Positions 1 to 18,646 of a DNA stretch of 36,050 nt are shown one piece after another; positions within the stretch are counted from its first letter, which is position 1, and each line of letters starts with the position of its first letter. The stretch comes from Methanosarcinaceae archaeon (GTDB lineage: Archaea; Halobacteriota; Methanosarcinia; Methanosarcinales; Methanosarcinaceae). Made by a program: the position numbers and the translations under genes. Where the stretch lies: the NCBI GenBank assembly GCA_020055655.1, contig JAIPUR010000027.1, forward strand, positions 1-36,050, read 5' to 3'. The notes beneath the pieces are model-generated. The model was not told where the DNA came from. It made no database searches and saw nothing but the letters and a program-made list of their open reading frames with translations.

Positions 1-425
1 CCTGAAATGATTTTTTTCTCTCCTTTCAGCAGAGGTGCATAATCGGTAACATCCACCACCCATTGCCAGCCGTTTTTGCCACCCAGGTCAAGGCCCTTTC
101 CATATGGCGTTACAAAGGCAGAGAGGTTAACATGCTCAACCGTATCGTTTTTGGGAATAAGTACATTTGTTTTTGTCAGGTAATCCCATTCGCCGCAGGG
201 AAAGCTATCAGCCCGGGTTCGTTCGTCGCATTTCAGGGTTTTTACCATCAGAATCTGACGCCACTGCCCGCTGTCCGGAAAATGAGCAGTTCCCTCGTAA
301 CTGGCATTCCAGCCTTCCGGCGATGGTTTGTTCCAGTCAAAAACATTAATGGTAATGGTATCTTCCTGTGCTGTGCTTAGCAACACCAGTAATGTAAAAA
401 TAAGGAGACTAAAAAGACGTTTCAT
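1..425 (-). CDS. PNGase F-related secreted protein, N-terminal part (bacterial, runs off window)
   Basis: This open frame begins at the ATG on the minus strand at 425-423 and is cut by the window edge, leaving about 141 residues. It starts with a signal peptide (MKRLFSLLIFTLLVLLSTAQ). Around residues 60-85 it carries TLKCDERTR followed by PCGEWDYLT, which I recognise as typical of the N-terminal domain of peptide-N-glycosidase F-type proteins of Bacteroidota. That family is exported and cleaves N-glycans from glycoproteins, but the catalytic residues cannot be checked because most of the protein is missing. The two cysteines seen could form a disulphide. It is transcribed away from the LolC/E remnant at 524. 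The family call rests on motif recall, and glycan activity is inference. Confidence 0.68.
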   Translation of the reverse strand, partial: MKRLFSLLIFTLLVLLSTAQEDTITINVFDWNKPSPEGWNASYEGTAHFPDSGQWRQILMVKTLKCDERTRADSFPCGEWDYLTKTNVLIPKNDTVEHVNLSAFVTPYGKGLDLGGKNGWQWVVDVTDYAPLLKGEKKIIS

Positions 426-523
426 ACATTGCAATTTTGACCAAAAATACAAAAAAGGCGCAGACCAAGGCAGCGGCTTTCAAATTCCACCTTTTAATGC
501 TACATTTGTAACCAACACAAGCA

Positions 524-748
524 ATGAATACGGAATTATACATAGCACGCCGCCTGTTAAAAGGCAAAAAAAACAAAAGCAATTACAGCCGGCCAATTGT
601 CAATATAGCCGTTACCGGGATTGCATTAGGACTGGTGGTGATGATACTTGCCGTGTCCATTCTGACTGGTTTTAAACGTGAAATCCGGGATAAGGTAAGC
701 GGCTTTGGCTCCCACCTATAGGTAACCAATTACGACATCAGGAAGTAG
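524..748 (+). pseudogene. LolC/LolE-type ABC permease, N-terminal remnant (bacterial)
   Basis: The frame opens with MNTELYIARRLLKGKK, then a hydrophobic first membrane helix (about residues 27-50) and GFKREIRDKVSGFGSH. This is the usual start of FtsX-like permeases of the lipoprotein-releasing LolCDE transporter, which are about 400 residues long. Here a TAG stop falls at 719-721, where family members usually have glutamine before V-T-N-Y-D. The frame after the stop still reads VTNYD, so one C-to-T change could explain it. A second stop follows at 746-748, and the 3' end of mutS, on the other strand, begins at 774. About five sixths of the gene is therefore missing. It is either a decayed gene or a local misassembly. 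Confidence 0.65.
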
Positions 749-773
749 ATGTTACAGCTAAAAGTGTAGCCAA

Positions 774-3452
774 TTACCTTTTATCCACCAGCTTCTTGAG
801 CTCAGAAACAAGCATCAGCGATTCGATGGGTGTCACGCGATTAGGATCGCTGGCTTCGAGCTTGTCAATAAGTTGCTCTACATGTGGATCGAGCTGAGTC
901 TGAAATAAGGATGGTTGCTGGATTTGCTGCTGCTTGTCGAGATCTTTCGCAGCCTTTTTGACGGCCGCTTTCTTTTTCTTTGCGCCTTCTTCAAGCGTGC
1001 CGTTACTGTCGGTGACATCCAGGCTGTGACTTTCCAGATTCTTGAGGATCTCCTTCGCTCGCTCAATCACGATGGAGGGCAACCCGGCCATATCAGCCAC
1101 CTTAATACCGTAACTGTGATCGGCCCCGCCGCGCACCAGCTTCCGCAAGAAAATCACTTTGTCGTCGTGCTCTTTTACTGACACATTGTAGTTTACAATA
1201 TGGTCGTACATATTTTCGAGCTCATTCAGCTCGTGGTAATGGGTAGCAAAAAGCGTCTTTGCAGCTACCGATGGTTGGTTATGTAGATACTCTGCCAGTG
1301 ACCAAGCAATACTGAGTCCATCAAAGGTGCTGGTCCCACGACCCACTTCATCGAGCAAAATCAGTGAATTGCGCGTGGCATTATTGAGGATATTGGCAGC
1401 TTCATTCATCTCAACCAAAAAAGTGCTTTCTCCCGCAGCCAAGTTATCCGAGGCACCCACGCGCGTAAAGATCTTGTCAACCAGCCCAATATGTGCTTCA
1501 TCCGCCGGTACGAAACAACCGATCTGCGCTAACAGCACAATCAGTCCCGTTTGACGAAGTATAATACTCTTACCCGCCATATTGGGACCGGTAATAATCA
1601 GAATCTGCTCGTCTTCATTCTCAACGTGGATATCATTGGGAATGAAGGGATCACCGGGCGGCAGTGTTTTCTCCACCACCGGATGACGTCCTTTAGTAAT
1701 ATCAATTTTCTGATCATCTGCGATAGCCGGCTTGCAATAATTATTATGGTAGGATACCTCGGCAAAACTCTGCAGACAATCGAGCTCAGCCAATGCCTCT
1801 GCTACCTGCTGAATTTCTTCGGCGAAACCGGCAATTTCTACACGCAGTTCTTCAAATAGATCGTATTCGAGCGACTTACTTTGCTCTTCGGATGACAGAA
1901 TTTTCTCTTCCACCTCTTTGAGTTCTGGCGTAATATAGCGCTCAGAATTCACCAGCGTCTGTTTACGAATAAAATGATCCGGCACTTTATCGGCATGGGT
2001 GTTGGTTACCTCAATATAATAGCCATAGACTTTGTTGTAACCGATCTTGAGCGAATCAATACCCGTTTCCGCAGCCAGTTCATCTTTGGTTTCGGCAATA
2101 TAATCCTTACCGTTCCGGGCGACATTGCGAAGCTCATCGAGCTCCTCATTGTAACCATCCTTGAAAATATCTCCATCGCGCAGGCTGGTCGGCGGATCTT
2201 CGGCAATAGCATTTTCGATCATTTCCTGCACTTCAATCAGCAGATTCAAACGCTCCAAAATATCAATAAGCAGAGGTTCTTCGAGCTGCTTAAACTGCAT
2301 TTTAATACGCGGGATCTGCGCCAGCGACTGTTTGAGGCTCACCAAATCACGGGGATTGGCCCGTCCTACACAAATCCGGGAAATCAGTCGTTCCAGATCT
2401 CCGACCTGTCCCAGTTCTTCGCTAAGCTTATCACGCACATCGTGATTAACATTCAGAGCTTCCACCGCATTGAGTCGCTCACGAATAGGCTTCATGCGTT
2501 TTAGCGGACGCATAATCCACTTGCGGAGCATGCGGCCACCCATGGCCGTGCTGGTCTCATCTAATATGGAAATTAGGGTTCCTTCACTGGCGCCCTCTTG
2601 GATTGTAGTCGTCAGCTCCAGGTTGCGCTTGGTTGAACCGTCCAACGCCATGTATTCATTGTTCTCAAACTTCTGCAGACGCTTAATATGTCCCAGCGAT
2701 GCCTTCTGTGTTTCTTGGATATAGTGCATCAGCGCACCGGCCGCTACTTGAGCCACCTCCCGATCTTCGACGCCAAATCCTTTTAACGAATGCGTTTCGA
2801 AATGATCAGTCAGCAGGTTGTATCCGTAATCGCCTTCATACACCCACTCCTCAATAAAGGTCATGTTGTAATCGAGCAGATACTCGGGCACATCATTTTT
2901 AAGATACTGTGGCAACAGCAGTTCCGCCGGTGTAATAGACTGCAACAGATCGTTCAGCTGTTCCTTGGGTACCTCACTGAGCGCAAATTCTCCGGTGGAT
3001 ACATCCGCAAAGCCAATACCCGCTTTATTCCCTTCCAAATAAATCGCTGCCGCATAGTTATTGCGCTTATGTTCCAGCAACTTTTCCGACATCGTCACGC
3101 CGGGTGTCGTAATCTCAGTCACTTCTCGATTTACAATTTTCCGGCCGCCCTTTTTGGCCTCGGATGGGGTTTCAACCTGATCACAAACGGCCACCCGGTA
3201 CCCTTTTTTAACCAGCTTGGGCAGGTATGTATCTAGTGCGTGATGAGGAAATCCCGCCATGGGGGTCTGATCACTACCATTATTCCGCTTGGTAAGGGTA
3301 ATGCCCAATTCTTTGCTCACCAGCTTAGCGTCATCAGCAAAGCATTCATAAAAATCGCCCACACGGAACAGCAAAATAGCGCCTTCGTGCTCTTCCTTAA
3401 TTTTATGATATTGCCGCATCAACGGCGTAAGCGATTTCGTTTTGGTACTCAT
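774..3452 (-). CDS. mutS: DNA mismatch repair protein MutS (bacterial)
   Basis: A complete MutS of about 892 residues, slightly longer than the E. coli protein. The mismatch-reading Phe-x-Glu is visible near the start (GDFYECF, about residues 32-38). The central lever and clamp domains follow. The ATPase has Walker A TGPNMAGKS near residue 615, then LLDEVGRGTSTFDG and the FATHYHEL signature. A lysine-rich linker (about residues 815-835) precedes the C-terminal dimerisation segment. I chose the ATG at 3452-3450 because the upstream in-frame TTG adds only two residues. There is no Shine-Dalgarno site, as is usual in Bacteroidota-like genomes. It acts with MutL in post-replicative mismatch repair. 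The sequence is bacterial, of Balneolota/Bacteroidota type, unlike everything downstream of 4150. Confidence 0.95.
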   Translation of the reverse strand: MSTKTKSLTPLMRQYHKIKEEHEGAILLFRVGDFYECFADDAKLVSKELGITLTKRNNGSDQTPMAGFPHHALDTYLPKLVKKGYRVAVCDQVETPSEAKKGGRKIVNREVTEITTPGVTMSEKLLEHKRNNYAAAIYLEGNKAGIGFADVSTGEFALSEVPKEQLNDLLQSITPAELLLPQYLKNDVPEYLLDYNMTFIEEWVYEGDYGYNLLTDHFETHSLKGFGVEDREVAQVAAGALMHYIQETQKASLGHIKRLQKFENNEYMALDGSTKRNLELTTTIQEGASEGTLISILDETSTAMGGRMLRKWIMRPLKRMKPIRERLNAVEALNVNHDVRDKLSEELGQVGDLERLISRICVGRANPRDLVSLKQSLAQIPRIKMQFKQLEEPLLIDILERLNLLIEVQEMIENAIAEDPPTSLRDGDIFKDGYNEELDELRNVARNGKDYIAETKDELAAETGIDSLKIGYNKVYGYYIEVTNTHADKVPDHFIRKQTLVNSERYITPELKEVEEKILSSEEQSKSLEYDLFEELRVEIAGFAEEIQQVAEALAELDCLQSFAEVSYHNNYCKPAIADDQKIDITKGRHPVVEKTLPPGDPFIPNDIHVENEDEQILIITGPNMAGKSIILRQTGLIVLLAQIGCFVPADEAHIGLVDKIFTRVGASDNLAAGESTFLVEMNEAANILNNATRNSLILLDEVGRGTSTFDGLSIAWSLAEYLHNQPSVAAKTLFATHYHELNELENMYDHIVNYNVSVKEHDDKVIFLRKLVRGGADHSYGIKVADMAGLPSIVIERAKEILKNLESHSLDVTDSNGTLEEGAKKKKAAVKKAAKDLDKQQQIQQPSLFQTQLDPHVEQLIDKLEASDPNRVTPIESLMLVSELKKLVDKR

Positions 3453-3564
3453 CGACAAGCAGTTATTTTATTATTAATTTTTCAGTACTATTAAGACGGA
3501 CCGTTCACAACATAAACTTCAGAAATGCCGGCCCAAAAAAATAACAAATCAGCATTCATTAACA

Positions 3565-4149
3565 GTGCAGAAGTATAAGAATTTCTGGCGGCTCATCGTA
3601 ACCTTGATAAAAAAGAAGGACGTTTTTTTTAGTGCGTCTGCCATCACCTTTAACCTGTTTATTTGTGCCATTCCCTTTATTCTGCTGATGATCTCTATCA
3701 TTGGTTATGTGCTCTCATATGAAGAGGCTTTTGCCGAAATTGTCCGCTATGGACAAGAGCTCTTCCCCAGCTTCACCTATGAATCAGAGTCCGGAGATGT
3801 GTATCGCGGCGCAATAACGCTCGAGTCGCTGCTGAACCCGCTGGTAGGGGCGCGCCAAATTTTTGGCATCATCGGTACCGTAATCCTGATATTCTTTTCA
3901 CTGGGATTTTTCCACAGTCTCAAACATGTCATTTTCGATATTTTTGAAATTGAAGATCGGCGGCATCCCATTCTCGAAATGGTCTACAACTTTTTCACTT
4001 TTGGATTAGTGGGAGGCGTCTTTCTTTTTTTCAGTCTAGCCATTTCGCTGCTATCCATCTTCTCTTTTGATCAGATTTCACTGCCCTATACCGAGATGGT
4101 ATTTCAGCTTTCATGGATATACGACCTGCTTAACCTGATCATTCCTATT
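3565..4149 (+). CDS. YihY/UPF0761-type membrane protein, 5' part only (bacterial)
   Basis: About 195 residues of a polytopic membrane protein. It has [19 protein letters not shown] near the N-terminus (compare the A-x-x-F and P-F/L motif of the YihY/virulence factor BrkB family), a soluble loop, and helices around residues 95-125 and 140-170. The last helix reads into I-I-P-I-I-F, after which the frame becomes prolyl-tRNA synthetase with no stop between. The true C-terminus is missing. The GTG at 3565 is used as start for want of an in-frame ATG, so it is uncertain. The gene is divergent from mutS, with 112 bases between them. The end given is approximate, since the junction lies within about 4141-4158. 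Confidence 0.72.
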
Positions 4150-4689
4150 ATATTCAAAGATTCAGGTGAGGTCCTTGAAGCATGTGAGAATGTAATGGCT
4201 CTGCTCGAAGGTGCAGGCATACGTGTGAAGATGGATGCAAGTGAAGGTCGTCCTGGTGCTAAGTACTATAAATGGGAGATGAAAGGTGTTCCTGTGAGGC
4301 TTGAGCTTGGCCCACGTGATCTTAAGAACAACGCAGCTATGCTTGCACGCCGTGATACTGGTGAGAAATCCCAGTTCTCTCTTGACAATATCAAGGATGA
4401 GGTTCTCTCTTTGCTGGATGCTGTGCAGGATGGCCTTTACAACAAAGCAAAAGATGAGCTGGAAGCACGTATATTTGATTGCTCAGATCTTGATGATGTA
4501 AAAGAGAAAACATCAAACGGTATCGCTCGTGTTTTCTGGTGCGGCGACAAGGGGTGTGGCCTGAAGCTCGAGGGGGAGATCGGTGCAGGTATTCTTGGAA
4601 TACCTACTGAACAGAATAATAGTTTTGGTAAATGTCCTGTATGTGGTGCAGATTCTGATACTCAGGTATACGTCGCCAGAACCTATTGA
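4150..4689 (+). CDS. proS: Prolyl-tRNA synthetase, C-terminal part only (archaeal)
   Basis: The last ~180 residues of an archaeal/eukaryal-type ProRS, the enzyme that charges tRNA-Pro. The anticodon-binding domain is clear: EVLEACENV, then [20 protein letters not shown] and ARRDTGEK. The C-terminal zinc domain of this ProRS class follows, with four cysteines (C-x4-C, then KCPVCG) and the characteristic terminal tyrosine. The catalytic domain with class II motifs is absent, because the frame upstream is a bacterial membrane protein fused in phase. A complete enzyme is about 480 residues. cobT follows after 53 bases. The 5' limit is approximate. This segment marks the beginning of the archaeal part of the window. 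Confidence 0.9.
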
Positions 4690-4742
4690 TATGAATTGGA
4701 AAATATAGATATATACTCTCGAAAATAAGGTAGGTGATTATT

Positions 4743-5810
4743 ATGGAATCATTATCTCCCGAAAATGCCAAGTTGCCGGGGAATCCTCTGTTCGTATGTG
4801 TGCTCGGAAATACGGCGACTGCTTATATTGAAGGTTTATCTGCAGCAGGAAAGACTGCAAAACTAACTGATCTTACTCCTGCGGGAGATTCCGAAGTTTT
4901 GGAAACTGGATGTATCATAGACATTCCAATTCTTCCAATGACTCCTCCTTATGATACTCCTACGCCTGCTCTCATTACGAGGGTGGCATTAAAAATGGCT
5001 GGTGTTCCTCATATGCTTGTGAATGCAGGCCTCAGGGTACTTCCTTCTGAGAAGGTTCCTCTTGTTGATCTGGGTGGATTGCCTGGGGATGATATCAGAG
5101 GTGAGCTTGCAGTTCATAATGTTGAAAAGGTCTTCAAAAATGCTTACAAGCTCGGTGAGGATCTTTCCAGAAAGCATGATCTTGTTGTTATTGGTGAAAG
5201 CATAGCTGCTGGAACAACTACTGCAAATGCTGTTTTGCAGTCTCTTGGATACGATGGGAATGTAAGTAGCAGTTCCTCATCCAATCCGCTCGATCTGAAA
5301 AAACAAGTTGTTTCTGAAGCTCTAAAAGTTTCAGGTATCACCCATGGCTCTATGCGCCATGATCCACTTGGGGCCATTGAATGTGTTGGCGACCCCATGA
5401 TGGTTGTAGTTGCAGGAATTGCTGCGGGTCTTGGTGATACAAGACTAATACTTGCAGGCGGTACTCAGATGGAGTCTATTTTTGCTGTGGTCAAACACCT
5501 TGGTTATACCACTGATAATATGACTATTATAACTACCAGTTATGTTTCAAATGATGAATCAGCAAGTTTCTGTAATATTGCAGATCAGCTTGGCGCAAAA
5601 TACTATGGTATCGATCCTGAATTTGGTAAATCAAAGTCACAGGGACTGCGTCAATATGAACTTGGTTTTGTTAAGGAAGGTGTAGGTGCCGGAGCTGCAA
5701 TTTATCTTACGCGCATGTTCGGCCATTCTCTTGAGGATCTGCGTACTGGGATTGAAGACCTTTGCCATGAATTATGCAAACTTGGGGATCTGCTTCGGGT
5801 TGAAGAATAA
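4743..5810 (+). CDS. cobT: Archaeal CobT-like nicotinate mononucleotide-dependent phosphoribosyltransferase
   Basis: About 355 residues of the archaeal CobT family (UPF0284/TIGR00303). These proteins are thought to activate the lower-ligand base of cobamides by transferring phosphoribosyl from nicotinate mononucleotide. Cobamides are essential to methylotrophic methanogens for methyl transfer to coenzyme M. Visible landmarks are the FVCVLGNTATAYIEGLS start, the glycine-rich GESIAAGTTTANAVLQSLGY segment near residue 150, and LAGGTQM near residue 240. The start is the ATG at 4743, five bases after an AGGTGA ribosome site (4732-4737). The in-frame GTG at 4734 lies inside that site. A T-rich tract after the stop (about 5843-5900) may terminate transcription. 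Confidence 0.88.
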   Translation: MESLSPENAKLPGNPLFVCVLGNTATAYIEGLSAAGKTAKLTDLTPAGDSEVLETGCIIDIPILPMTPPYDTPTPALITRVALKMAGVPHMLVNAGLRVLPSEKVPLVDLGGLPGDDIRGELAVHNVEKVFKNAYKLGEDLSRKHDLVVIGESIAAGTTTANAVLQSLGYDGNVSSSSSSNPLDLKKQVVSEALKVSGITHGSMRHDPLGAIECVGDPMMVVVAGIAAGLGDTRLILAGGTQMESIFAVVKHLGYTTDNMTIITTSYVSNDESASFCNIADQLGAKYYGIDPEFGKSKSQGLRQYELGFVKEGVGAGAAIYLTRMFGHSLEDLRTGIEDLCHELCKLGDLLRVEE

Positions 5811-6032
5811 GGGTAGAATTGGATAATATGCTGGGGGTATCCTATTGATTTATTATCACTTCTTTCTTTTTGAGTTTACAGCTTCTCTTTTTATTTTTGA
5901 TCATTAAGCTTTCATTTTATTTATTTTGCTGTTTTGTATTCTTTTTAGGTGATTATTGGATGATTACTTGAAAACTACCGCTAGGTATATCTTTGATAAG
6001 GTGTATTTTGGGGTGATTCCCTCTATTATCGA

Positions 6033-6232
6033 GGGGCTGTGGCCTAGCCTGGAATGGCGACGGGCTCCAACGGATAAATGATGAACAACGGGTCTACTGA
6101 GGCTCAACCCGACGGGGTTAGCCGGTGAGGAGCCGTTGGAGCACTGATATGTGCTCACTAACTTTCTACTGTGTTAATCCGCAGTAGTTCGGAGAGACCC
6201 GTCGATCGTGCGTTCGAATCGCACCAGCCCCA
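6033..6232 (+). tRNA. tRNA-Trp (CCA) with a 126-nt intron
   Basis: A full cloverleaf can be folded: acceptor GGGGCTG (6033-6039) with CAGCCCC (6225-6231), D arm, anticodon stem ACGGG (6060-6064) with CCCGT (6198-6202), T arm GTGCG-TTCGAAT-CGCAC, and discriminator A6232. The anticodon CCA is 6067-6069. The intron (6071-6196) lies between positions 37 and 38. Its boundaries form a bulge-helix-bulge for the archaeal splicing endonuclease: CTCC pairs with GGAG (6191-6194), flanked by the 3-nt bulges AAC (6069-6071... cut after 6070) and AGA (6195-6197, cut after 6196). The mature tRNA is 74 nt without encoded CCA end. A GTATATC box about 50 bases upstream may be its promoter. Confidence 0.95.
6071..6196 (+). 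ncRNA. tRNA-Trp intron acting as box C/D methylation guide RNA
   Basis: The intron has box C ATGATGA (6078-6084), D' CTGA (6097-6100), a C'-like GTGAGGA (6125-6131) and D CTGA (6144-6147). Guide 1 (6088-6095) pairs with 6195-6202. The fifth base upstream of D', G6092, faces C6198, which is tRNA position 39. Guide 2 (6133-6142) pairs with 6064-6073. The fifth base upstream of D, G6139, faces C6067, the wobble base C34. Both guides cross the exon-intron borders, so they act on the precursor. A GGCT/AGCC hairpin sits between D' and C'. This matches the arrangement known from Haloferax pre-tRNA-Trp, where C34 and U39 are 2'-O-methylated; here position 39 is C. Confidence 0.9.
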
Positions 6233-6270
6233 CGTTTTTATTTTATTTTGTAATCTTTTATTATATCTGA

Positions 6271-6370
6271 GAAACTTATATATGTGGATGTATCATATGG
6301 AGTATAATTAAAAATATTGATGCATTAATATATGCGATTTGCTTCGCATGACTTGGGTGGTTTTCAACCA
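6271..6370 (+). promoter_or_regulatory. Promoter and structured leader of the response regulator gene
   Basis: GAAAC plus TTATATATG (6271-6284) reads as BRE and TATA box, placing transcription start near 6306. The transcript would then carry two small hairpins: ATGCGA/TCGCAT (6332-6337 with 6344-6349) and TGGTT/AACCA (6358-6362 with 6366-6370). The leader is about 125 nt, long for an archaeal mRNA. A regulatory role is only inferred. Confidence 0.5.
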
Positions 6371-6431
6371 TCATGTTTATATTAAAATGCATTTATCTAT
6401 GATAATCGTGCAGTAAGGGAGTATATGGTGC

Positions 6432-7202
6432 ATGCAGAATAAAGATAAAGTACTCATTGTTGATGATGAAGTGGCTATTGTGGAGTTGATGGGACTCTAT
6501 CTTAAGTCTGATTATGAAATTCTCACTGCATATAATGGTCAGGAGGCACTTGATAAGGTCAAGTCCGATAAGCCTGATATAATTCTTCTTGATGTAATGA
6601 TGCCTGATATGAACGGGTATGAAGTTTGTCGTATTCTTAAAACATCAGTTGAAACCCAGTTCCTTCCTGTGATAATGGTTACTGCTCTTTCTGGCAAAGA
6701 TGATCGTATCAAAGGTATTGAAGTTGGTGCAGATGAATTCCTTGGTAAGCCAGTTAACAGGCTTGAATTAGTTACCAGGGTCAAGTCATTACTGCGAATC
6801 AAACACTTACAAGATAAGGTGTTGGCTGAAAGGAACGAGGTCATGAATTATTTTGATATTGCTAACTTTGCAATGATTGTGGTCGATGCTGATCTTCGGA
6901 TACATCTGGTTAACAAGAAATGTAATGACCTTTTTGGATTTGATGAATTTGAACTGATAGGTCGTGATCTTATGACGGCCCTTCTTGCGCCTGAGTGTCG
7001 TGAAGTTGTTAAGGAAAACCTTCAATCTGTAATCTCCGGTGTCAATGATGTTTCTACATTTGCAGAGCGTATAATTGTCTGTAAGGATGGTACTGAACTC
7101 TCTGTAAGGTGGTTTGATGCATTGTTGAAGGATTCAGAGGGTAATGTAACAGGAATGGTACTTTCCGGTCAGAATCTTAGTAGCTGTTATGGCGGGGAGT
7201 AA
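6432..7202 (+). CDS. Response regulator with receiver and PAS domains
   Basis: A 256-residue soluble signalling protein. Residues 5-120 form a receiver domain, with the acidic pair D11-D12, the phosphoacceptor D54 in ILLDVMMPD, a Thr in VMVTALSG near 84, and the Lys of LGKPV near 106. Residues about 138-250 form a PAS domain (FDIANFAMIVVDADLRIHLV, then KDGTELSVRWFDALL). There is no DNA-binding or kinase output domain, so the PAS domain may sense a ligand or serve as a protein contact. It stands alone: the nearest genes are tRNA-Trp upstream and a decayed gene downstream, and the partner histidine kinase is not in the window. The start ATG at 6432 follows AGGGAG by about nine bases. Confidence 0.85.
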   Translation: MQNKDKVLIVDDEVAIVELMGLYLKSDYEILTAYNGQEALDKVKSDKPDIILLDVMMPDMNGYEVCRILKTSVETQFLPVIMVTALSGKDDRIKGIEVGADEFLGKPVNRLELVTRVKSLLRIKHLQDKVLAERNEVMNYFDIANFAMIVVDADLRIHLVNKKCNDLFGFDEFELIGRDLMTALLAPECREVVKENLQSVISGVNDVSTFAERIIVCKDGTELSVRWFDALLKDSEGNVTGMVLSGQNLSSCYGGE

Positions 7203-7293
7203 TTCATTAATTTTCCCTTATTATCTATTGTTTCATATATGTTGCAGGAATTCTCTTCGCTTTTTCTTTTCAGTAAACTTGCTGTAACGCAAA

Positions 7294-7523
7294 TTATCCA
7301 TTTTTATGCAGAATCACATGCATTCCAATTGTTAGCAAAATGCTGGCCTTGTTGTGTATTAGTGTCCAAAGGGCCTTTATAATTCCCATATACTCCTGGT
7401 ATCTTCCACGTGATACCCTCTCTGGTATAAATAAATAGATAAAGAATCCTGTAAATGCAACTATTAGAAAAAGTAATGTTATGATTATGTCGATAAAAAA
7501 TAATTTAACTTTGTTTTATTCAT
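7294..7523 (-). pseudogene. DUF4405-like small membrane protein, frameshifted
   Basis: On the minus strand an ATG at 7523-7521 begins MNKTKLNYF, then runs out of frame in a six-base A/T run (7495-7500). In the shifted frame the reading continues as FIDIIITLLFLIVAFTGFF, IYLFIPERV, GRYQEYMGIIKALWTLIHN and SILLTIGMHVILH to a TAA at 7296-7294. One extra T in the run would restore a single frame of about 76 residues. The two hydrophobic helices, the P-E-x-V loop and the histidines resemble DUF4405 proteins, which are small membrane proteins suspected to bind haem. The last helix looks shortened. It may be a true pseudogene or a homopolymer sequencing error. Confidence 0.6.
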
Positions 7524-7690
7524 CTGATTTTGTATATGCATATTTGTGATTTTAAATATTTGCAATTTTCTATGCATCAAAAAGGTTTAAATCATATTAC
7601 TCGGTAGTACACCTGTTTCATTATCGGGATATGTCCCGTGGGAATGTAGCTTTTTGAAAGTTGAACCGTGAAACAATAAAATGAAACTAG
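7524..7690 (+). promoter_or_regulatory. Promoter region of the rpl15e operon
   Basis: The sequence AAAAAGGTTTAAATC (about 7579-7593) reads as BRE plus TATA box and would give a transcript starting near 7615. The leader of about 85 nt contains GGGATATGTCCC (7626-7637), which can form a short hairpin. The ribosome site AGGTGA lies at 7689-7694. I see no gene on either strand between the DUF4405 remnant and rpl15e. Confidence 0.5.
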
Positions 7691-7699
7691 GTGAATATT

Positions 7700-8290
7700 T
7701 TGTCTAAATCAGCATACGGATACATGAGAGATGCATGGAAAGACCCGGACAACACGGTTGTCAGGGAACTTAGATGGGAAAGACTTCAGGGATGGAGAAA
7801 AGAAGGCTCTGTAACAAGAGTAGAACGTCCAACCCGTATTGACAGAGCACGCTCCCTTGGATACAAGGCAAAGCAGGGTATCGTTGTAGCTCGTGTCAAG
7901 GTACGTAGAGGAAGTCTTAGAAAGTCAAGATTCATTGGTGGAAGACGTTCCCAGCGCATGGGTAAGAACAAGATCACTGCAGGTAAGAGCATCCAGAGGA
8001 TCGCAGAAGAGCGTGCAGGAAGAAAATACCCTAACATGGAAGTTTTGAATTCCTACTGGGTTGGCGAAGATGGTAAATTGAAGTGGTACGAAGTAATTCT
8101 CGTAGACCCAAGCCATCCTGTTATTAAAAGCGACAAGAATCTTAACTGGATTTGCGGCAATACTCACAAGGGCCGTGCAAACCGTGGTAAGACCAGTGCA
8201 GGTCGCAAGGGTAGAGGTATGATGTGCCGTGGAACTGGTACAGAAAAGACCAGACCAAGTATCAGATCAAACCATAACAGAGGCAAGTGA
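7700..8290 (+). CDS. rpl15e: 50S ribosomal protein L15e
   Basis: 196 residues, the usual length for archaeal L15e. It is strongly basic, beginning [16 protein letters not shown] and containing [21 protein letters not shown] and [16 protein letters not shown], all family signatures. I place the start at TTG 7700-7702: the AGGTGA ribosome site (7689-7694) ends five bases before it, whereas the in-frame GTG at 7691 lies inside that site. The resulting M-S-K-S-A-Y agrees with the family's short N-terminus. It is the first gene of a compact block in which the next three genes overlap by a few bases, suggesting cotranscription with RNase P subunits. Confidence 0.95.
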
Positions 8291-8733
8291 TCCACTATAT
8301 TAACTTGCGTGTGATCGCGCATTCAACTGAAGATCGATCCAGGGTATTAAAATCCCTGGAATTCTTTTTATCAAGTTTTTCCAATGGCAAGAATACTGAT
8401 GATCTTGTTGAAGCATTGGATGTTGAAGGTCATTATGGGAACTTGATTAAGATCTTTAGTGCTCAGGTCGCTCGTAAATCCGATTCTAAAGCTCTTGCAA
8501 ATTTCATCAGGGACAATATGTCTGATGAAGATGTTTTGCGTCTACGTGACGAGATGCCGGATCGTCTGGATGATGACCAAGTATTTCATATCAGAGTAGA
8601 CAAGCAAGCTGCTTTTCAAGAAAATGTAAAACTGACCTCTTCAGCAGATGCAATAACTGTAAAGGTCAAAATAGCCACATATCCGAAGGATCGGCTAAAA
8701 GCCGGACTGATCGTGGAGGAATTGTTTGGCTGA
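8287..8733 (+). CDS. RNA-binding protein of the DUF54 (PF01877) family
   Basis: 148 residues. Its start GTG at 8287 overlaps the rpl15e stop, with AGAGG (8278-8282) as ribosome site. The protein has the short alternating beta/alpha segments of the archaeal DUF54 RNA-binding family ([16 protein letters not shown] at the start, HFRVDKQAA-like [12 protein letters not shown] near residue 100, and [15 protein letters not shown] near the end). Members are usually encoded beside L15e and RNase P or exosome genes in Euryarchaeota, as here. A precise function is not established. By context it is likely to act in rRNA or tRNA maturation. Its stop overlaps the start of rnp3. Confidence 0.78.
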
Positions 8734-9463
8734 ACCTTTGTTTTACGATCTGAGCATTCATTTAAAATCCGAGGACCCTGTTGTTCTCAAAAAATTATCT
8801 AATCTTGCACAACATCTGGGTTATAGTGGTATAGCTATAAACAGTGTGGATAATTCATCAAAGCTTGTGCGATCTATGGAGATTGACACTATTAATTTAC
8901 TCTCATCCGTTGAACTTAAAATTAGTAACGCGTCAAAATTACATGGTCAGATTGGCAAATACCTCAACAAGGTAGATGTAATTACTGTAGTTGGTGGAAA
9001 CGAAAGTATTAATCGTGCAGCAGTGGAAAATCCTAATGTAGATGTTCTTACGAGGTTAGCCACACCAAAAGACAATGGCTTTAACCATGTGCTTGCAAAA
9101 GAAGCTGCTGACCATAATGTTGCAATTTCATTTGATCTTGGCGATATTATCCATTTGAGGGGCGGAAGAAGGGTACATTCACTAATGAATTTCCGAAAAA
9201 ATCTTCTACTCGTGAGAAAATACGATGTTCCTTTCATTTTAACAAGCAATGCAGTATCCATTTTTGATATGCGTGCTCCGAGGGAGATGATCGCATTGGC
9301 TGCTTTGTTTGGAATGACCCGCGAAGAGGCTATATCCGGACTTTCTGAAACACCGGGCGCTATAGCTTTAAAGAAGAATCATTCACCGGGCTACATTATG
9401 GAAGGTGTGCTGGAGTTAGATAGTTCATGTGTATCTGATGATCTCAGGGGTGAACATGTATGA
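8726..9463 (+). CDS. rnp3: RNase P protein component 3 (Rpp30 homologue)
   Basis: 245 residues with the TIM-barrel-like PHP-derived fold of Rpp30. It starts FYDLSIHL, contains VVGGNESINRAAVENPNVDVL (about residues 90-110, quoted in part), AISFDLGDIIHLRGGRR and SNAVSIFDMRAPREM, all conserved in archaeal Rnp3. It pairs with Pop5 (Rnp2), which is encoded next, to help the catalytic RNA remove tRNA 5' leaders. The start is TTG 8726, a few bases after GGAGGA (8715-8720) and overlapping the previous stop. The rnp2 start overlaps its own stop (ATGA), so translation of the two partner subunits is probably coupled. Confidence 0.92.
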   Translation: MAEPLFYDLSIHLKSEDPVVLKKLSNLAQHLGYSGIAINSVDNSSKLVRSMEIDTINLLSSVELKISNASKLHGQIGKYLNKVDVITVVGGNESINRAAVENPNVDVLTRLATPKDNGFNHVLAKEAADHNVAISFDLGDIIHLRGGRRVHSLMNFRKNLLLVRKYDVPFILTSNAVSIFDMRAPREMIALAALFGMTREEAISGLSETPGAIALKKNHSPGYIMEGVLELDSSCVSDDLRGEHV

Positions 9464-9825
9464 AAGTACTACCGCCAACACTGCGCCCTAAAAAAAGATA
9501 CCTTGCATTTGAATTAATTGCAGAGTCGCCCATTTCACGAGATGAATTGATACGGGAAATATTTTCCGCAGCATCTCATCTTCTCGGTGATGTGGGTGCA
9601 AGTGAATGTGCTATAAGACTGCTTGCATTTGAGGAGTCTAATGGTGTTGTCCGTTGTGAGTCCGATCGGACTGAAAACACACGTGCGGTACTTGCCAGTA
9701 TCACAAGTATAAAAGGAAAGAGAGTATTGTTCCACGTGCTTGGAATATCGGGTACAGTACTGGGTGCAACAAAAAAGTATTTAGAGGGTGCGGATGTATT
9801 TAGTCCGCAGAACAGTCACATATAA
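9460..9825 (+). CDS. rnp2: RNase P protein component 2 (Pop5 homologue)
   Basis: 121 residues, normal for archaeal Pop5. The start LPPTLRPKKRYLAFELI and the C-terminal VLGISGTVLGATKKYLEG match the family, an RRM-like alpha/beta sandwich. Pop5 forms a heterotetramer with Rpp30 and increases catalysis by RNase P RNA. Its gene overlaps rnp3 by four bases. The RNase P RNA itself is not in this window, nor are Rpp21 and Rpp29. A gap of 78 bases with AT-rich TATA-like sequence precedes psmA, so a second promoter may lie there. Confidence 0.9.
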   Translation: MKVLPPTLRPKKRYLAFELIAESPISRDELIREIFSAASHLLGDVGASECAIRLLAFEESNGVVRCESDRTENTRAVLASITSIKGKRVLFHVLGISGTVLGATKKYLEGADVFSPQNSHI

Positions 9826-9903
9826 ATGAATAGAAGATATAATTTATAGTGTATAGTATGATTTACTGTTATTATTTTATTATGAATTAGGAGATTAAGC
9901 GAT

Positions 9904-10707
9904 ATGCAAATGACACCACAGATGGGTTATGATCGGGCAATTACTGTATTCAGTCCCGACGGTCGTCTTTTCCAGGTAGAATACGCGAGAGAAGCAGTTA
10001 AAAGAGGTACTACCGCAGCAGGTGTAAAATCCAAGAACGGTGTAGTTCTACTTGTTGATAAAAGAATAACCAGCCGCCTCATAGAAGCAGAGTCTATTGA
10101 GAAAATATTCCAGATAGATGACCATATAGGCGTTGCTACTTCCGGACTGGTTGCAGACGCTCGTGCTCTGGTAGATAGGGCGAGAATAGAGGCTCAAGTG
10201 AATATGGTATCTTATGATGAGCCTATAGGAGTGGAAGTTATTGCAAAGAAGATCTGTGATCATAAGCAGACTTACACTCAATATGGGGGAGTCCGCCCTT
10301 ATGGTACCGCACTTCTAATAGCCGGTGTTGATGGCGACAGGCCAAGATTATTTGAGAGCGACCCAAGCGGTGCATTACTTGAATACAAGGCTACCGCTAT
10401 TGGTGCTGGTAGAAATACGTTCATGGAAACATTTGAATCTGATTATGATGAAAATATGGGAATGGACGATGCTATCATGCTAGGGCTCAAGGCTCTTTAC
10501 AGTTCAACAGAAGGTAAGATCGATCCGACAACCCTTGAGTTAGGTGTTGCCACTGTCGAAGACAAACAGTTCAGAAAACTGCCTGGGGATGAGGTCAAAG
10601 CATATGTTGATAAGGCACTTGAAGTACTCGATGTAGAAGCTGAGGAAGAAGAATCTGCAGAAAATGAGGATGATTCCGCTGAAGAGAAGGATGAATCTAC
10701 TGAATAA
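9904..10707 (+). CDS. psmA: 20S proteasome subunit alpha
   Basis: 267 residues. The alpha-type signature [20 protein letters not shown] is present at residues 8-27, with the N-terminal gate segment MQMTPQMG before it. Further landmarks are [25 protein letters not shown] (residues 79-93) and [12 protein letters not shown]. Alpha subunits form the outer rings of the 20S core and contact the PAN/Cdc48 unfoldases. The protein lacks the N-terminal catalytic threonine of beta subunits. The last ~30 residues are very acidic ([20 protein letters not shown]), which is longer than in many archaeal alpha subunits. The ribosome site AGGAGAT lies at 9889-9895. A second in-frame ATG at 9910 is a possible start. 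Confidence 0.95.
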
Positions 10708-10742
10708 ATAACTGAAATATCATAAAAATGAGGTGAATGAAC

Positions 10743-11435
10743 ATGGTATCTCTTGATAAATCTCTTATTGCAAGACTCAAGAAAGGAAAGAATCACTTTG
10801 AGGTCTTTGTTGATCCTGAGGGTGCTTTTGCTCTTAAAAGGGGTGAAACGGTTAATATTGAGGATATAATTGCTGTTGAATCGGTGTTTTCTGATGCGCA
10901 TCAAGGGGATCATGTTTCTGAATCCGACCTCGAGAGTACATTTAATACCACCGATGTAATGGAAATTGCAGAGCAGATCATATTGCATGGTGATATACAG
11001 CTAACTAAAGAGCAGAGGAAGCATATTCTAGAAGAGAAGACCAATCAGGTCATAACTATCATTGCGCAGAATGCTATAAATCCACAAACAAAGGCTCCGC
11101 ATCCTCCAGGAAGAATCTCAAAGGCAATGGAAGAAGCTAAAGTGCACATTGATCCTATCAAAGGTGTGGATGAGCAGGTCAACATTGTGATGAAAGCAAT
11201 ACGTCCTGTCATTCCTATAAGGTTTGAAGAGGTTGATGTCGCTGTAAGGATACCTGCAGATTATGCTGCAAAGGCATATGGTGACATAGCCAAATTCGGC
11301 AATCTTCTTAAAAATGAATGGCAAAATGATGGTTCCTGGGTAGCAGTCGTAAAGATACCTGCCGGACTTCAGAATGATTTCTATGGTCTGGTAAATCATC
11401 TGTCAAAAGGTGATGCCGAAACAAAACTTCTATGA
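10743..11435 (+). CDS. sdo1: Ribosome maturation protein SDO1 (SBDS homologue)
   Basis: 230 residues with the three-domain SBDS layout. The FYSH domain is first (SLDKSLIARLKKGKNHFEVFV, quoted in part, to about residue 90), then a helical domain containing ILHGDIQLTKEQRKH and HPPGRISKAMEEA, then a ferredoxin-like C-terminal domain with IRPVIPIRFEEVDVAVRIP. The SBDS family helps large-subunit maturation and release of the anti-association factor eIF6. In Euryarchaeota it is found between psmA and the exosome genes, as here. The ATG at 10743 is chosen: AGGTGA (10731-10736) is correctly spaced from it but abuts the ATG at 10737. Confidence 0.93.
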   Translation: MVSLDKSLIARLKKGKNHFEVFVDPEGAFALKRGETVNIEDIIAVESVFSDAHQGDHVSESDLESTFNTTDVMEIAEQIILHGDIQLTKEQRKHILEEKTNQVITIIAQNAINPQTKAPHPPGRISKAMEEAKVHIDPIKGVDEQVNIVMKAIRPVIPIRFEEVDVAVRIPADYAAKAYGDIAKFGNLLKNEWQNDGSWVAVVKIPAGLQNDFYGLVNHLSKGDAETKLL

Positions 11436-11444
11436 GGATGCATA

Positions 11445-12224
11445 ATGGAATGTAATATTGTAATCCCTGGCCAATTTTTATCTGATGATGCAGGTAAGTC
11501 CGGCCATGGGACTTATGTTAAAGACGGAAAGGTCTATTCTCTTCTGTATGGGATTATGAATGCAAAGAACAAGATGTCTGTAATCCCATTCTCAAGCAAA
11601 TATATACCTTCCCGCAAAGATTTTGTTGTTGGGACTGTAATCAATGTCACTCCTTCAAATTGGATTTTTGACATTGGTTCTCCTTATGATGGTTTGCTTC
11701 ATGTTTCAGAATATCCTCGACGTGTGGATTCTGACAAGATGTCTGGAATTATGGGCATATCGGATTCTGCATTACTTCGTGTAAAAGATGTAAGTTCATC
11801 CATGAAAGTTGAGCTGTCCATGCGTGAGCGTGGTTTAAGGGCTCTTAAGACGGGACGTATTTTAGAAGTGTCTCCTGCAAAGGTTCCGCGGGTCATAGGA
11901 CATGGTGGTTCTATGGTCTCAATGCTTAAAAAGGAAACAAATTGTGAAATATTCGTAGGTCAGAACGGAAGGATTTGGATCGATGGAACTGATGGTAATA
12001 TGGATCGTCTCGCTGAAGCTGTTGAGATGATCATGGAGCATTCACATTCCTCCGGATTGACTGATCGTGTATGTCGGTTTTTAAGAAATGTATCGGATGA
12101 TGATTCCGAGAATGATGAAAATACCCAGAAAGGCGACTTTGCAGAGGATGAAGAAGATGAATGCAAAGTCCATGGTGATGCCTGTAGAACGGTCGATGCT
12201 CTTTTGGATGCTGAAGATGAGTAA
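11445..12224 (+). CDS. rrp4: Exosome complex RNA-binding subunit Rrp4
   Basis: 259 residues. An N-terminal domain (VIPGQFLSDD..KSGHGTYV) is followed by an S1 domain (VVGTVINVTPSNWIFDIGSP..GLLHVSEYP, about residues 65-140) and a KH domain with VPRVIGHGGSMVSMLKKETN near residue 150. Rrp4 caps the archaeal exosome ring and feeds RNA to the Rrp41-Rrp42 chamber. The last ~50 residues are acidic (DDDSENDENTQ..AEDEEDE) and contain two cysteines (CKVHGDAC). That tail is not part of the core fold. The gene starts nine bases after sdo1, and rrp41 follows. Confidence 0.93.
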   Translation: MECNIVIPGQFLSDDAGKSGHGTYVKDGKVYSLLYGIMNAKNKMSVIPFSSKYIPSRKDFVVGTVINVTPSNWIFDIGSPYDGLLHVSEYPRRVDSDKMSGIMGISDSALLRVKDVSSSMKVELSMRERGLRALKTGRILEVSPAKVPRVIGHGGSMVSMLKKETNCEIFVGQNGRIWIDGTDGNMDRLAEAVEMIMEHSHSSGLTDRVCRFLRNVSDDDSENDENTQKGDFAEDEEDECKVHGDACRTVDALLDAEDE

Positions 12225-12274
12225 GGGTATTTTCTGGATATAAAAGCCAATTGTATGAATATTGGAGAATTAGT

Positions 12275-13225
12275 ATGAGTGATAAACCTGAAAAATTCAT
12301 TGATGAGAACGGTTTACGCCTTGATGGAAGGCAAGTTGATGAAATGAGGCCCATGAAGATGGAGCTTGGCGTCATTTCCAGAGCAGATGGTTCTTGCTAT
12401 TTGGAATGGGGCAAGAATAAGGTGATGGCTGCTGTTTATGGTCCAAGGGAACTTCATCCTAGGAGGATGCAGAAGGCAGACTCTGTTCTTATCAGATATA
12501 GATATAATATGGCAGCTTTCTCTGTGGAGGACCGCATAAGGCCTGGGCCCAACAGAAGAAGTATTGAGATATCAAAAGTAAGTAGGGAGGCATTTGAACC
12601 TGTTGTACTTACTCATTTGTATCCTGGTGCTGTGATCGATGTTTTTGCAGAAGTGCTCCAGGCAGATGCCGGTACAAGGACAGCTGCTATTAATGCAGCA
12701 TCAATGGCTCTTGCTGATGCCGGAATTCCGATGAAGGGTCTTGTTGCAGCATGTGCTGTGGGCAAAGTAGACGGTCAACTTGTTCTCGATCTTAACAAGG
12801 CAGAGGATAATTTTGGAGATGCTGACTTCCCAATGACATTTACTCAGGATGGCGAAGTCTCACTTGTCCAGATGGATGGTAATTTCACTCAGGAAGAGTT
12901 CAAACAGGCTGTTGAGATGTGTAAAGAGGGATGTCAGAAGATCCTTGGAATGCAGCAAGAAGCTCTCAGGAACAAATTCGCAGGTGAATTGTCAACTGAT
13001 GAAGTTGATGTAGAATTGATCGAAGAGGATGTAGTTGAAGCTGAATCCGATGATGTGGATGAAGGAGCTGCAGAACCAGAAGAAGTGGACGAAGATGTCG
13101 AAGAGTCTCAGGACGATGTAGAAGATGATTCTATGATCAAAGCTGATGAACCAGAGTTTGAAGAAGACGAACCTGAAGACGAGCCTGAGTCTGAAGAAGA
13201 CGAACCTGAAGAGGAAACTGCTTGA
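12275..13225 (+). CDS. rrp41: Exosome phosphorolytic subunit Rrp41 with acidic C-terminal extension
   Basis: 316 residues, of which about 245 make the RNase PH fold. Landmarks are GLRLDGRQVDEMRPMKMELG, ADGSCYLEWGKNKV, the RNA-contacting GPNRRS near residue 92, and DLNKAEDNFGDADFP near residue 180, holding the catalytic aspartates. Rrp41 is the active 3'-5' phosphorolytic subunit, and in reverse it adds A-rich tails. From about residue 243 to the end there is a ~75-residue tail made almost only of D, E, P, S and V, with repeats of the type EDEPEDEPE. Family members normally end near residue 245. I chose ATG 12275 (after TTGGAGAA). An in-frame ATG eight codons earlier lacks a ribosome site. Confidence 0.95.
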   Translation: MSDKPEKFIDENGLRLDGRQVDEMRPMKMELGVISRADGSCYLEWGKNKVMAAVYGPRELHPRRMQKADSVLIRYRYNMAAFSVEDRIRPGPNRRSIEISKVSREAFEPVVLTHLYPGAVIDVFAEVLQADAGTRTAAINAASMALADAGIPMKGLVAACAVGKVDGQLVLDLNKAEDNFGDADFPMTFTQDGEVSLVQMDGNFTQEEFKQAVEMCKEGCQKILGMQQEALRNKFAGELSTDEVDVELIEEDVVEAESDDVDEGAAEPEEVDEDVEESQDDVEDDSMIKADEPEFEEDEPEDEPESEEDEPEEETA

Positions 13226-13240
13226 TACGTGGTGAGATCA

Positions 13241-14023
13241 ATGAGCAATGAAGTAATGTCTGCGTTGAAAAAAGATTACATTTATAACCTGATCCTTAAG
13301 GGAGAGCGTTCTGATGGCCGTGCCTTTGACGAATTCAGGGATATTGAATTAAGAACAAATGTTATAGAGAAAGCAGAAGGTTCTGCCTGGCTTAAGTTGG
13401 GTAAGACCGAAGTTCTGGTTGGTGTGAAATTACAGGTGGGTAAACCATTCCCTGATTCTGCTGATCAGGGTGTTATTATCACAAGTCTTGAACTGAACCC
13501 GATCGCATCTCCTGATTTCGAAGCTGGTCCTCCAAGGGAGAATGCTATCGAAATGGCCCGTGTTGCTGACAGGGGTATCCGTGAGTCAGGCGCAATTGAT
13601 TTAACTAAGTTGTGTATTACGGAGGGAGAAGAAGTATGGATGGTATTCATTGACGTCCATGTTCTCAATAATTACGGTAATATTCAGGATGCAGCATCTT
13701 TAGGTGCAATTGCAGCACTGATGACTGCAACCATTCCAGCTGAACGTGAAGGCAAAGGCGAGGACAGTCCGTTGCCTATCAGGGATATGCCTCTGGCTGT
13801 AACTCTGGTAAACATTGGCGGCTCAATGCTCGTAGATCCCGGACTTGATGAAGAAGCAGTCTGTGGGACTCGAATAACCATTGTGTCTAATCAGGATGGT
13901 TCCATCTCAGGAATGCAAAAGAGTGGCGATGGTGCACTAACCGAAGAACAGTTGCTATCTGCTGTTGAGATGGCATGCAAGAAAGCGTCCCAGATTAGGG
14001 AAGCAAATCTCTTGAATATCTGA
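13241..14023 (+). CDS. rrp42: Exosome subunit Rrp42
   Basis: 260 residues, normal length. The RNase PH fold is seen in [39 protein letters not shown] and [21 protein letters not shown]. Rrp42 lacks catalytic residues and alternates with Rrp41 in the hexameric ring, contributing to RNA binding. Unlike its two operon partners it has no acidic tail. The start is ATG 13241, five bases after GGTGA (13231-13235). The GTG at 13229 overlaps that site. The rrp4-rrp41-rrp42 order is the standard archaeal one. Confidence 0.95.
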
Positions 14024-14070
14024 TAATAACGATTATACTCAAAATTATTCAATTTAAGGAGCTTACATTC

Positions 14071-14364
14071 ATGGGTAAAAAATATACAAGGAAAGGCCGT
14101 GTATCCCGATCCGCTGGTAGATTCGGTACACGCTATGGTAGAAGCGACCGTAAATTAGTAGCAGATCTTGAACAGAAGATGCGCATGCCACACAAATGTG
14201 CAAACTGTGCTCGTCCTAATGTAAACAGAGTAGGTACGGGTATATGGAAATGTACCAAATGTGGTTACACCTTTGCCGGTGGTACCTTCCTTCCGCAGAC
14301 AACTGTTGGTAATACAGTTGCACGTTCTGTAAAGAAGGCTACTGAGAAAGTCGAAATATATTGA
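14071..14364 (+). CDS. rpl37ae: 50S ribosomal protein L37Ae (eL43)
   Basis: 97 residues. It begins [21 protein letters not shown] and has a C4 zinc site, [23 protein letters not shown], at about residues 46-70, then AGGTFLPQT. This is the usual form of eL43. The gene follows rrp42 after 47 bases with AAGGAG as ribosome site (14057-14062) and is followed ten bases later by rpoP. The grouping of L37Ae, RpoP, a Brix protein, Pcc1 and prefoldin beta is common in Euryarchaeota. Confidence 0.95.
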
Positions 14365-14374
14365 GTAGGTGAGT

Positions 14375-14512
14375 ATGGACTACAAGTGCACACGTTGCAA
14401 AAGAAATGTTGAGATCGACTACGAGTATACTGGTGTACGCTGCCCTTATTGCGGACACCGTATCCTTGCTAAAGAACGTCCAACAACCATCAAGCGAATC
14501 AAAGCAGAGTAG
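14375..14512 (+). CDS. rpoP: DNA-directed RNA polymerase subunit P (Rpb12 homologue)
   Basis: A 45-residue protein, [16 protein letters not shown] then [13 protein letters not shown] and a basic C-terminus. The two C-x2-C pairs (C5/C8 and C23/C26) form the zinc ribbon of RNA polymerase subunit P, which joins the RpoD/RpoL/RpoN assembly platform. The start ATG at 14375 follows AGGTGAG (14367-14373) very closely. It is a full-length member, easy to miss because of its small size. Confidence 0.93.
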
Positions 14513-14519
14513 AAGCTAG

Positions 14520-14996
14520 ATGTTAATAACTTCTTCTCGCAAACCTTCAGCTAGTACTCGCATATTATGCAAGTACATGGCGGCTTTTTTTGGTTGTGAG
14601 TATTTCAACCGCGGTAAGATGAGCATGAATGGGGCTTTAGAGCTCTCTCATGGTTCTATCTTAATGATCCTGGGTGAGTATCATGGAAATCCTGGAAGCA
14701 TAACCGTATATGGTGCCGATGGTTTTTGCTTAATGTCCGCTTATATTTCATTATTACCACTTGAAAAAAGGACATATTCTATTTCAAAAAAGCTAGTTCC
14801 GGAAGTAGTTGGAAGCAGCGAGTTTGCTTCTGCTTTTTCCGACATTATTTCTTTAGCTCTTGTTAAAGAACCCTCTTCTTTACTAAGCATAGTCATAAAT
14901 GATGATCGGATTGATTTCATTCACGATTCAGAGGTCTTTTTTAGTCTGAAACTAAGGACATATCGTTTATATCGGGGTGATGATGATTGCAATTGA
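14520..14996 (+). CDS. Brix-domain ribosome biogenesis protein
   Basis: 158 residues. The opening MLITSSRKPSASTRILCKYM is typical of archaeal Brix (Imp4-like) proteins, and the rest alternates beta strands and helices as expected (GALELSHGSILMILGEY, PLEKRTYSISKKLVP). Brix proteins bind rRNA and assist early steps of ribosome assembly. In eukaryotes Imp4 belongs to the U3 snoRNP. The position between rpoP and pcc1 is the usual archaeal one and supports the call. The pcc1 start lies ten bases inside its 3' end, suggesting coupled translation. Confidence 0.82.
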   Translation: MLITSSRKPSASTRILCKYMAAFFGCEYFNRGKMSMNGALELSHGSILMILGEYHGNPGSITVYGADGFCLMSAYISLLPLEKRTYSISKKLVPEVVGSSEFASAFSDIISLALVKEPSSLLSIVINDDRIDFIHDSEVFFSLKLRTYRLYRGDDDCN

Positions 14997-15229
14997 TCGC
15001 AGAATCTGTCTTTGAAACAGATGGTGCAGATCCGATATATCTTTCACTCAGGCCTGAATTAGAAACTCCTGTTACTGACCGTTCCTCTATAAATCTTGAT
15101 TCAGATGGCTCCAGGCTGATACTAAAGGTTATAGCATTCGATATCATCTCAATGCGCTCTACCCTGAATACCTGGCTTCGTTTGATACAAGTTGCATCTG
15201 AGGTCTATGATTGCTCCATGGACTTTTAA
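14987..15229 (+). CDS. pcc1: KEOPS complex subunit Pcc1
   Basis: 80 residues with the short alpha/beta fold of Pcc1: RPELETPVTDRSSINLD, then LILKVIAFDIISMRSTLNTWLRLIQVA (about residues 44-70, quoted only to identify the helix region). The helix with R-S-T-L-N-T-W is the conserved part. Pcc1 forms the dimer at the core of KEOPS, which makes t6A on ANN-decoding tRNAs with Kae1 and Bud32. Start TTG 14987 is six bases from GGTGA (14976-14980) and overlaps the Brix gene. A second in-frame TTG at 14993 is an alternative. Confidence 0.83.
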   Translation: MQLIAESVFETDGADPIYLSLRPELETPVTDRSSINLDSDGSRLILKVIAFDIISMRSTLNTWLRLIQVASEVYDCSMDF

Positions 15230-15359
15230 ACGTGCATTATAATCTCTGATCATATCATCTCACATTTTCAAATCTCTCTATCCTCTTGCTCTTTTTGAAT
15301 CTTTGTTAATGGAAACATTAAAATCATTTCAGGTTTATTGGTATGCCAGGTGAAACCAA

Positions 15360-15713: not shown

Positions 15714-15777
15714 CGCCTTTTTCCACTACTGACATTCCCTTTTTTTACTGAATTCAGGGTAGTTGTCAGGAGTTTCC

Positions 15778-16779: not shown

Positions 16780-16790
16780 GGGTCTATCAA

Positions 16791-18095: not shown

Positions 18096-18134
18096 TATTC
18101 TATACAGCGTATTCAATGTGTTACAGGTGGTTTA

Positions 18135-18602: not shown

Positions 18603-18646
18603 TCAACCATTAACACTTTATAGTTCATCCTTTATTTTTCCTTGAA

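Follow-up and report, generated by a model that had tools for sequence, protein, structure and literature searches.

Does the open reading frame at positions 3565-4689 encode a genuine fusion of a bacterial membrane protein with an archaeal tRNA synthetase, or does it reflect an error in the contig that carries it? This forward-strand frame of 374 residues is open through the join of its two parts: its first 192-197 residues are those of a Balneolaceae (Fodinibius-type) YihY membrane protein, and its last ~183 residues are, in frame, those of an archaeal prolyl-tRNA synthetase (ProRS). The stretch of DNA analysed here (the window, 36,050 bases) is contig C19 in its entirety. The assembly to which C19 belongs has 48 contigs totalling 2,476,202 bases and is rated as 99.91% complete and 0.9% contaminated. 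From the evidence set out below, we regard it as almost certain that the 374-residue frame is an artefact and that contig C19 is chimeric, the chimera having arisen in assembly or, less likely, in the laboratory. The features of the window are collected in Table 1.

Table 1. Features of the window and domains of its 374-residue reading frame.
Feature	Position	Strand	Basis
Left-end piece, probably from a third source	1-736		PNGase F-like gene start and LolC-type permease N-terminus
PNGase F-like gene start	3-452	-	Match to PNGase F in PDB, E 7.7e-8
LolC-type permease N-terminus, 65 aa	524-718, stop codon 719-721	+	Similarity to LolC proteins
Probable second switch within bacterial DNA	737-776		Ends of LolC and mutS similarity
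mutS, complete, Fodinibius-like, 892 aa	774-3452	-	MutS domains I-V (Pfam)
yihY (BrkB family), cut short after residue 192-197 of about 300	3565-4156	+	Pfam; Balneolaceae loci
Virul_fac_BrkB (YihY) domain	residues 17-196 of the 374-aa protein		Pfam, profile positions 2-170 of 259, E 5.6e-12
HGTP_anticodon domain	residues 192-281 of the 374-aa protein		Pfam, E 1e-18
ProRS-C_1 domain	residues 310-374 of the 374-aa protein		Pfam, E 8.1e-15
Join; both parents fit over no more than 21 bp, including IPIIF (4141-4155)	4136-4156	+	Start of identity to contig C16; end of bacterial match
Archaeal proS C-terminal part (anticodon-binding and C-terminal domains)	4136-4689	+	Pfam; lies within the C16-matching stretch 4136-5962
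cobT-like gene	4734-5810	+	Second gene of the stretch also found on C16
Remaining archaeal chromosome	5963-36050	+	Gene order as in relatives

The domain content of the 374-residue protein was examined by using Pfam. As shown in Table 1, the YihY/BrkB family domain is incomplete in this protein, and no class II ProRS catalytic domain was detected in it by Pfam. When compared with the YihY/BrkB proteins (PF03631) of Fodinibius, the frame shares residues 1-192, encoded beside a divergent mutS, but is without the last third; when compared with prolyl-tRNA synthetases (PF03129, PF09180), it shares the C-terminal ~183 residues, which are near-identical to those of an intact protein encoded on another contig of the same assembly (C16), but is without the catalytic domain. 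That the frame might be a functional YihY-ProRS fusion gene could be argued from its being open and from its start codon, which lies at the same position as in Fodinibius yihY genes. However, such a gene would make a synthetase with no catalytic domain and a membrane protein cut off partway through the family profile, and the fusion was absent both in 39 relatives and among the Balneolaceae matches listed. With both domain sets incomplete and the fusion not seen in the relatives searched, we rejected this interpretation, whose probability we consider to be negligible. The initial annotation, made from the window's letters, had likewise found neither a ProRS catalytic domain nor a complete YihY, and had judged a functional fusion unlikely.

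A search of the same assembly revealed that part of the archaeal side exists twice. Positions 29675-31501 of C16 correspond to positions 4136-5962 of the window, with 99.67% identity, 6 mismatches, and no gaps. This match starts exactly at the join, and leftward of it C16 carries the rest of an intact proS of 480 residues. The cobT-like gene that follows proS matched PF02277 only below threshold (15.8 of 22.6 bits, E 0.0089). Five of the 6 differences between the two copies lie within 161 bp of proS (4465-4625), and 4 change a residue; when these 4 were compared with 19 relatives, the C19 residue was unseen at three (A, G, and F) and that of C16 at one (N). The 6 mismatches may represent either two strains or consensus errors; C19 has more odd residues. 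When window positions 5963-25900 were searched elsewhere in the assembly, only short matches (68-86%) were obtained; as far as this search extends, the doubled stretch is limited to proS-cobT.

The order of genes around this locus was then compared with that in relatives. In all four genus relatives examined (G003, G002, G009, and G016, out of 24), the genes found to the left on C16 are followed by full-length proS, cobT, and the genes of the window, the last being counted from 6432 on. Synteny with G003 reaches about 35 kb, and synteny with G002, G009, and G016 covers shorter stretches. A 255-aa open reading frame of C16 just before proS (C16 27847-28614) had no match at the locus in these four relatives. 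Moreover, proS is complete in all 19 relative loci compared, extending from residue 1 or 4 through residue 480, and when window positions 3565-6400 were searched against 39 relatives, the yihY part was matched in none of them; all their matches begin at query position 572 or later, which is window position 4136 or later. Given the conserved gene order, the complete proS, and the lack of a yihY match in these relatives, the most plausible reading is that the left part of C16 and the right part of C19 together make up a single locus, with the left 4.1 kb of the window misplaced. These results agree with the initial annotation, which had placed the C-terminal part of an archaeal ProRS downstream of the join (here the HGTP_anticodon and ProRS-C_1 domains, within a stretch 99.67% identical to C16), and which had warned that annotation as a novel fusion would be wrong (proS is intact on C16, and none of the 39 relatives has the fusion). 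As for its description of the remainder as 32 kb of methanogen genes, the archaeal gene order is confirmed by the four genus relatives, and the label "methanogen", like the names of most downstream genes, derives from that annotation and from reading by eye only.

On the other side of the join, the closest relatives are different ones. The mutS protein of the window is 85-93% identical to those of 12 Balneolaceae loci and 71% identical to that of a 13th, and the YihY part is 63-84% identical, at the protein level, to those of nine Balneolaceae loci. Seven of these nine belong to Fodinibius/Aliifodinibius, with near-identical or close organisation; the other two are an additional Fodinibius and a Balneolaceae bacterium. 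A single nucleotide alignment covers both mutS and yihY (about 780-4154, 78-79%) in five of these loci. The yihY genes of all nine continue to a length of about 300 residues; in L028, for instance, it is residues 1-197 of the 300-residue protein that match the window. The initial annotation had suggested searching the two halves separately for their intact parents, and both were recovered in this way: proS in the same assembly and in the relative loci, and a yihY of ~300 residues near mutS in Balneolaceae. When window positions 1-4300 were searched against 12 genus and 92 family genomes, some match was obtained in all 12 of the former and at least 90 of the latter. The bacterial parent species was not found in these genomes, the closest having ~79% nucleotide identity among the matches listed, and none of the matches listed starts before 770 or passes 4156. 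In the assembly itself, the bacterial 4.1 kb has no second copy, the only matches being two short ones (66% and 73%) on contig C33, and the missing end of YihY is absent. The bacterial DNA runs to the left end of contig C19, so that archaeal sequence is present on one side only.

Composition was measured through codon usage and tetranucleotide analyses. AGA and AGG make up 1 of the 45 arginine codons in mutS and the yihY part. Among nine archaeal genes in the window, they account for 102 of 178, and the intact proS has 7 of 22. When codons were scored as log-odds of archaeal versus Fodinibius usage, with proS and cobT excluded from the archaeal reference, mutS and yihY scored below zero, and the proS part and cobT above it, the sign thus flipping between yihY and the proS part. 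For positions 780-4135, the tetranucleotide distance came to 0.30 when measured against the archaeal part and to 0.18-0.23 against five Fodinibius-type loci; because the Fodinibius references for codons and tetranucleotides include homologues of mutS and yihY, the bacterial half of both tests is partly circular. The intact proS, the gene order in relatives, and this difference in composition together bear out the proposal of the initial annotation that bacterial and archaeal DNA were joined here as an artefact.

We also considered that Fodinibius-like mutS-yihY DNA might have been transferred recently into the archaeon in a shared habitat, the 3′ end of proS and cobT being duplicated and the tail of ProRS being placed in frame behind YihY. 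A real event of this kind would fit the frame open across the join and the two copies of the proS 3′ end and cobT, which have 6 differences and of which one has an insertion sequence (DDE transposase) behind it; in addition, one study (PMC8201837) calls misassembly rare. However, the bacterial DNA reaches the contig end and retains bacterial codon usage, the join falls at the register where the two genes agree best, and a second foreign source is probable at the left end (both points are detailed below). The truncated copy carries the usual downstream genes and the intact copy the usual upstream genes, as in one locus that has been split. Because the two proS/cobT copies divide one conserved locus, lateral transfer is considered to be very unlikely.

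The join itself was located by comparison with both parents. The window and C16 differ at 4135 and agree from 4136, and nucleotide matches to the nine Balneolaceae loci end at 4133-4156 (eight of the nine at 4148-4156), which is within the interval 4120-4165 given by the initial annotation. Agreement of the window with 14 bacterial relatives was 62% over 4100-4135, 66% over 4136-4156, and 14% over 4157-4200. Over the 21 bases of the shared stretch, these 14 relatives match the window at 10-16 bases; the window's base at 4138 occurs in one of the 14, and that at 4150 in none. Given these rare bases, the true overlap may be shorter than 21 bp.

To place this resemblance in context, 13 bacterial yihY genes (the 14 relatives with L034 left out) were set against C16's intact proS at all possible registers, without the letters of the window being used. 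At a word length of 21 bp, the join register gave the highest mean agreement of 1,252,240 placements, with 13.85 of 21 bases for the average of the 13 relatives, compared with a mean of 5.34 over all registers. When words of 15, 18, or 25 bp were used, 6, 9, or 12 registers, respectively, were as good, the join register included; with 11 or 31 bp, 98 or 292 registers, respectively, were as good or better. Taken singly, the 13 relatives had between 3 and 30,774 registers as good. With two other archaeal genes, 2 of 930,160 and 24 of 2,263,360 registers were as good. This test bears on where the join fell within the gene pair, not on why this pair was joined. Judging from these comparisons, a random join in this gene pair would hardly fall at that register, and a join on a short shared word would. 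By simple arithmetic with equal base frequencies, about 4.5 shared 21-mers would be expected by chance between genomes of 2.5 and 4 Mb; 21 bp is also a usual smallest word of short-read assemblers. The motif IPIIF had been said to suit both protein families, and an IP..F resemblance was indeed present in both, at what is the best 21-bp register for the 13 relatives averaged. The accompanying proposal of joining on short shared sequence would fit that register, less well for single relatives and for some word lengths; exact identity on the side of the bacterial parent is presumed, the 14 relatives matching at 10-16 of the 21 bases.

A junction on the same short shared stretch would also be expected if the chimeric molecule had been formed during library preparation or DNA amplification rather than by the assembler; this would also suit an overlap that possibly falls short of the word length an assembler uses. 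However, a molecule of this kind would be rare and should be outvoted by normal reads, and here the chimeric path became the contig, ran on through 4.1 kb of bacterial DNA, and then probably changed source once more. We thus consider a laboratory origin of the join to be improbable.

Evidence for that further switch came from the left end of the window. The initial annotation had reported a PNGase F-like gene and a LolC/E remnant in this region, and both were recovered, the former through its match in PDB and the latter as a LolC-type N-terminus that runs to a stop codon (Table 1). The PNGase F-like piece had no Pfam match, and the LolC-type fragment matched only MacB_PCD, below threshold (E 0.015). 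In all eight Balneolaceae genomes compared, the lolC fragment was 42-43% identical to its best counterpart, the counterparts being 86-100% identical to each other, whereas mutS of the same eight genomes was 85-93% identical to that of the window. Given the low lolC identity against the high mutS identity in the same genomes, the left end, from 1 to ~736, probably derives from a third organism, or else it would be a stretch peculiar to an unsampled bacterium. Accordingly, of the claim that all upstream genes are of Bacteroidota/Balneolota type, the assignment of YihY and mutS (both Balneolaceae) is retained, but positions 1 to ~736 seem to have another source. The LolC similarity seems to pass the stop codon by a few residues and to end at about 736, and nucleotide matches to the mutS relatives begin at 770-781, i.e., 34-45 bases beyond that end. 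When the ~16.5-kb regions surrounding yihY in nine Balneolaceae were searched at E up to 0.01, neither lolC nor PNGase F was matched, and the source of the left-end piece was not found in 394 genomes of the phylum, the best match being 57% over 65 aa.

The second copy with an intact proS, the identity that starts at the join, the gene order in relatives, the difference in composition, and the exceptional local resemblance are all direct observations, and they make it almost certain that the join is an artefact. In a chimeric C19, what truly lies to the left of the archaeal part would be found on C16, namely the remainder of proS and the genes before it. Their place in C19 would have been taken by mutS-yihY DNA, about 3.4 kb long, of a Fodinibius-like member of the Balneolaceae, and this piece seems in turn to have been joined to a third bacterium's DNA near 737-776. 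Most likely, the assembler made the join on a short word (21 bp or less, within 4136-4156) shared by the two genes, where two versions of proS-cobT, one of them with an insertion sequence behind it, would have created a branch point. We infer that the assembler rather than library preparation made the join, that the branch point was of this kind, and that the bacterial parent carried the full word. Misassembly into chimeric contigs is described in the GUNC paper (PMC8201837) as a known and relatively rare error of metagenome genomes, and another report (PMC7111523) likewise treats chimeric contigs as a known error type and calls them rare. In a third (PMC8171044), sequence that two species share gives rise to chimeric nodes, and the de Bruijn graph must be split there.

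Like other interspecies chimeric contigs from metagenomes or mixed cultures, C19 differs across its join in nearest relatives, codon usage, and synteny; the join lies where both genes resemble each other, and the intact parent gene is present elsewhere in the bin. It differs from them in that the join keeps the frame and a plausible hydrophobic motif, and in that three sources are possibly involved. Because frame and motif are kept, a gene caller would report a fusion protein. With C19 almost certainly chimeric, the 374-aa fusion protein most likely does not exist as a gene. These findings are relevant to quality control only: annotation of the 374-aa protein as a fusion should be avoided, the bacterial mutS of C19 is to be taken neither for an archaeal gene nor for an instance of gene transfer, and C16 and C19 are to be treated as halves of one locus. 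An assembly at 99.91% completeness and 0.9% contamination can still include a contig of mixed origin.

Past window position 5962, the two archaeal copies part. C16 has an insertion sequence with a DDE transposase, then rsgA, and the window proceeds to a tRNA gene. The insertion sequence occupies C16:31502-32781 (L003:11503-12782), its ends being judged by eye. In the assembly it was represented by one full-length copy and 18 partial matches of 67-96% (19 in all), and identical copies may have been collapsed. In three of four relatives, those in which rsgA was matched, rsgA is far from proS; thus, C16 beyond cobT holds either a strain rearrangement or another misjoin.

Several other features of the archaeal part were also recorded. 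The tRNA gene follows cobT in the window, as in relatives, at the place where C16 has the insertion sequence. This gene (6033-6233) has a long intron and was read by ARAGORN as Trp (CCA) when introns were allowed and as Asn (GTT) in another setting; without introns, ARAGORN detected no tRNA in the window. A C/D-box guide RNA, sR3, lies inside this gene at 6074-6149 (Rfam, 60.4 bits), and 23 of the 24 genus relatives retain the window sequence between 5976 and about 6232 at 80-84% conservation. A helicase-like gene at 24682-26100 (DEAD-box by eye) had no match at the syntenic position in G003 and may be a lineage-specific insertion. Finally, an eL15-Euryarchaeota ribosomal protein leader (Rfam RF03144, 37.1 bits) was detected at 7625-7672, before the open reading frame that begins at 7691.
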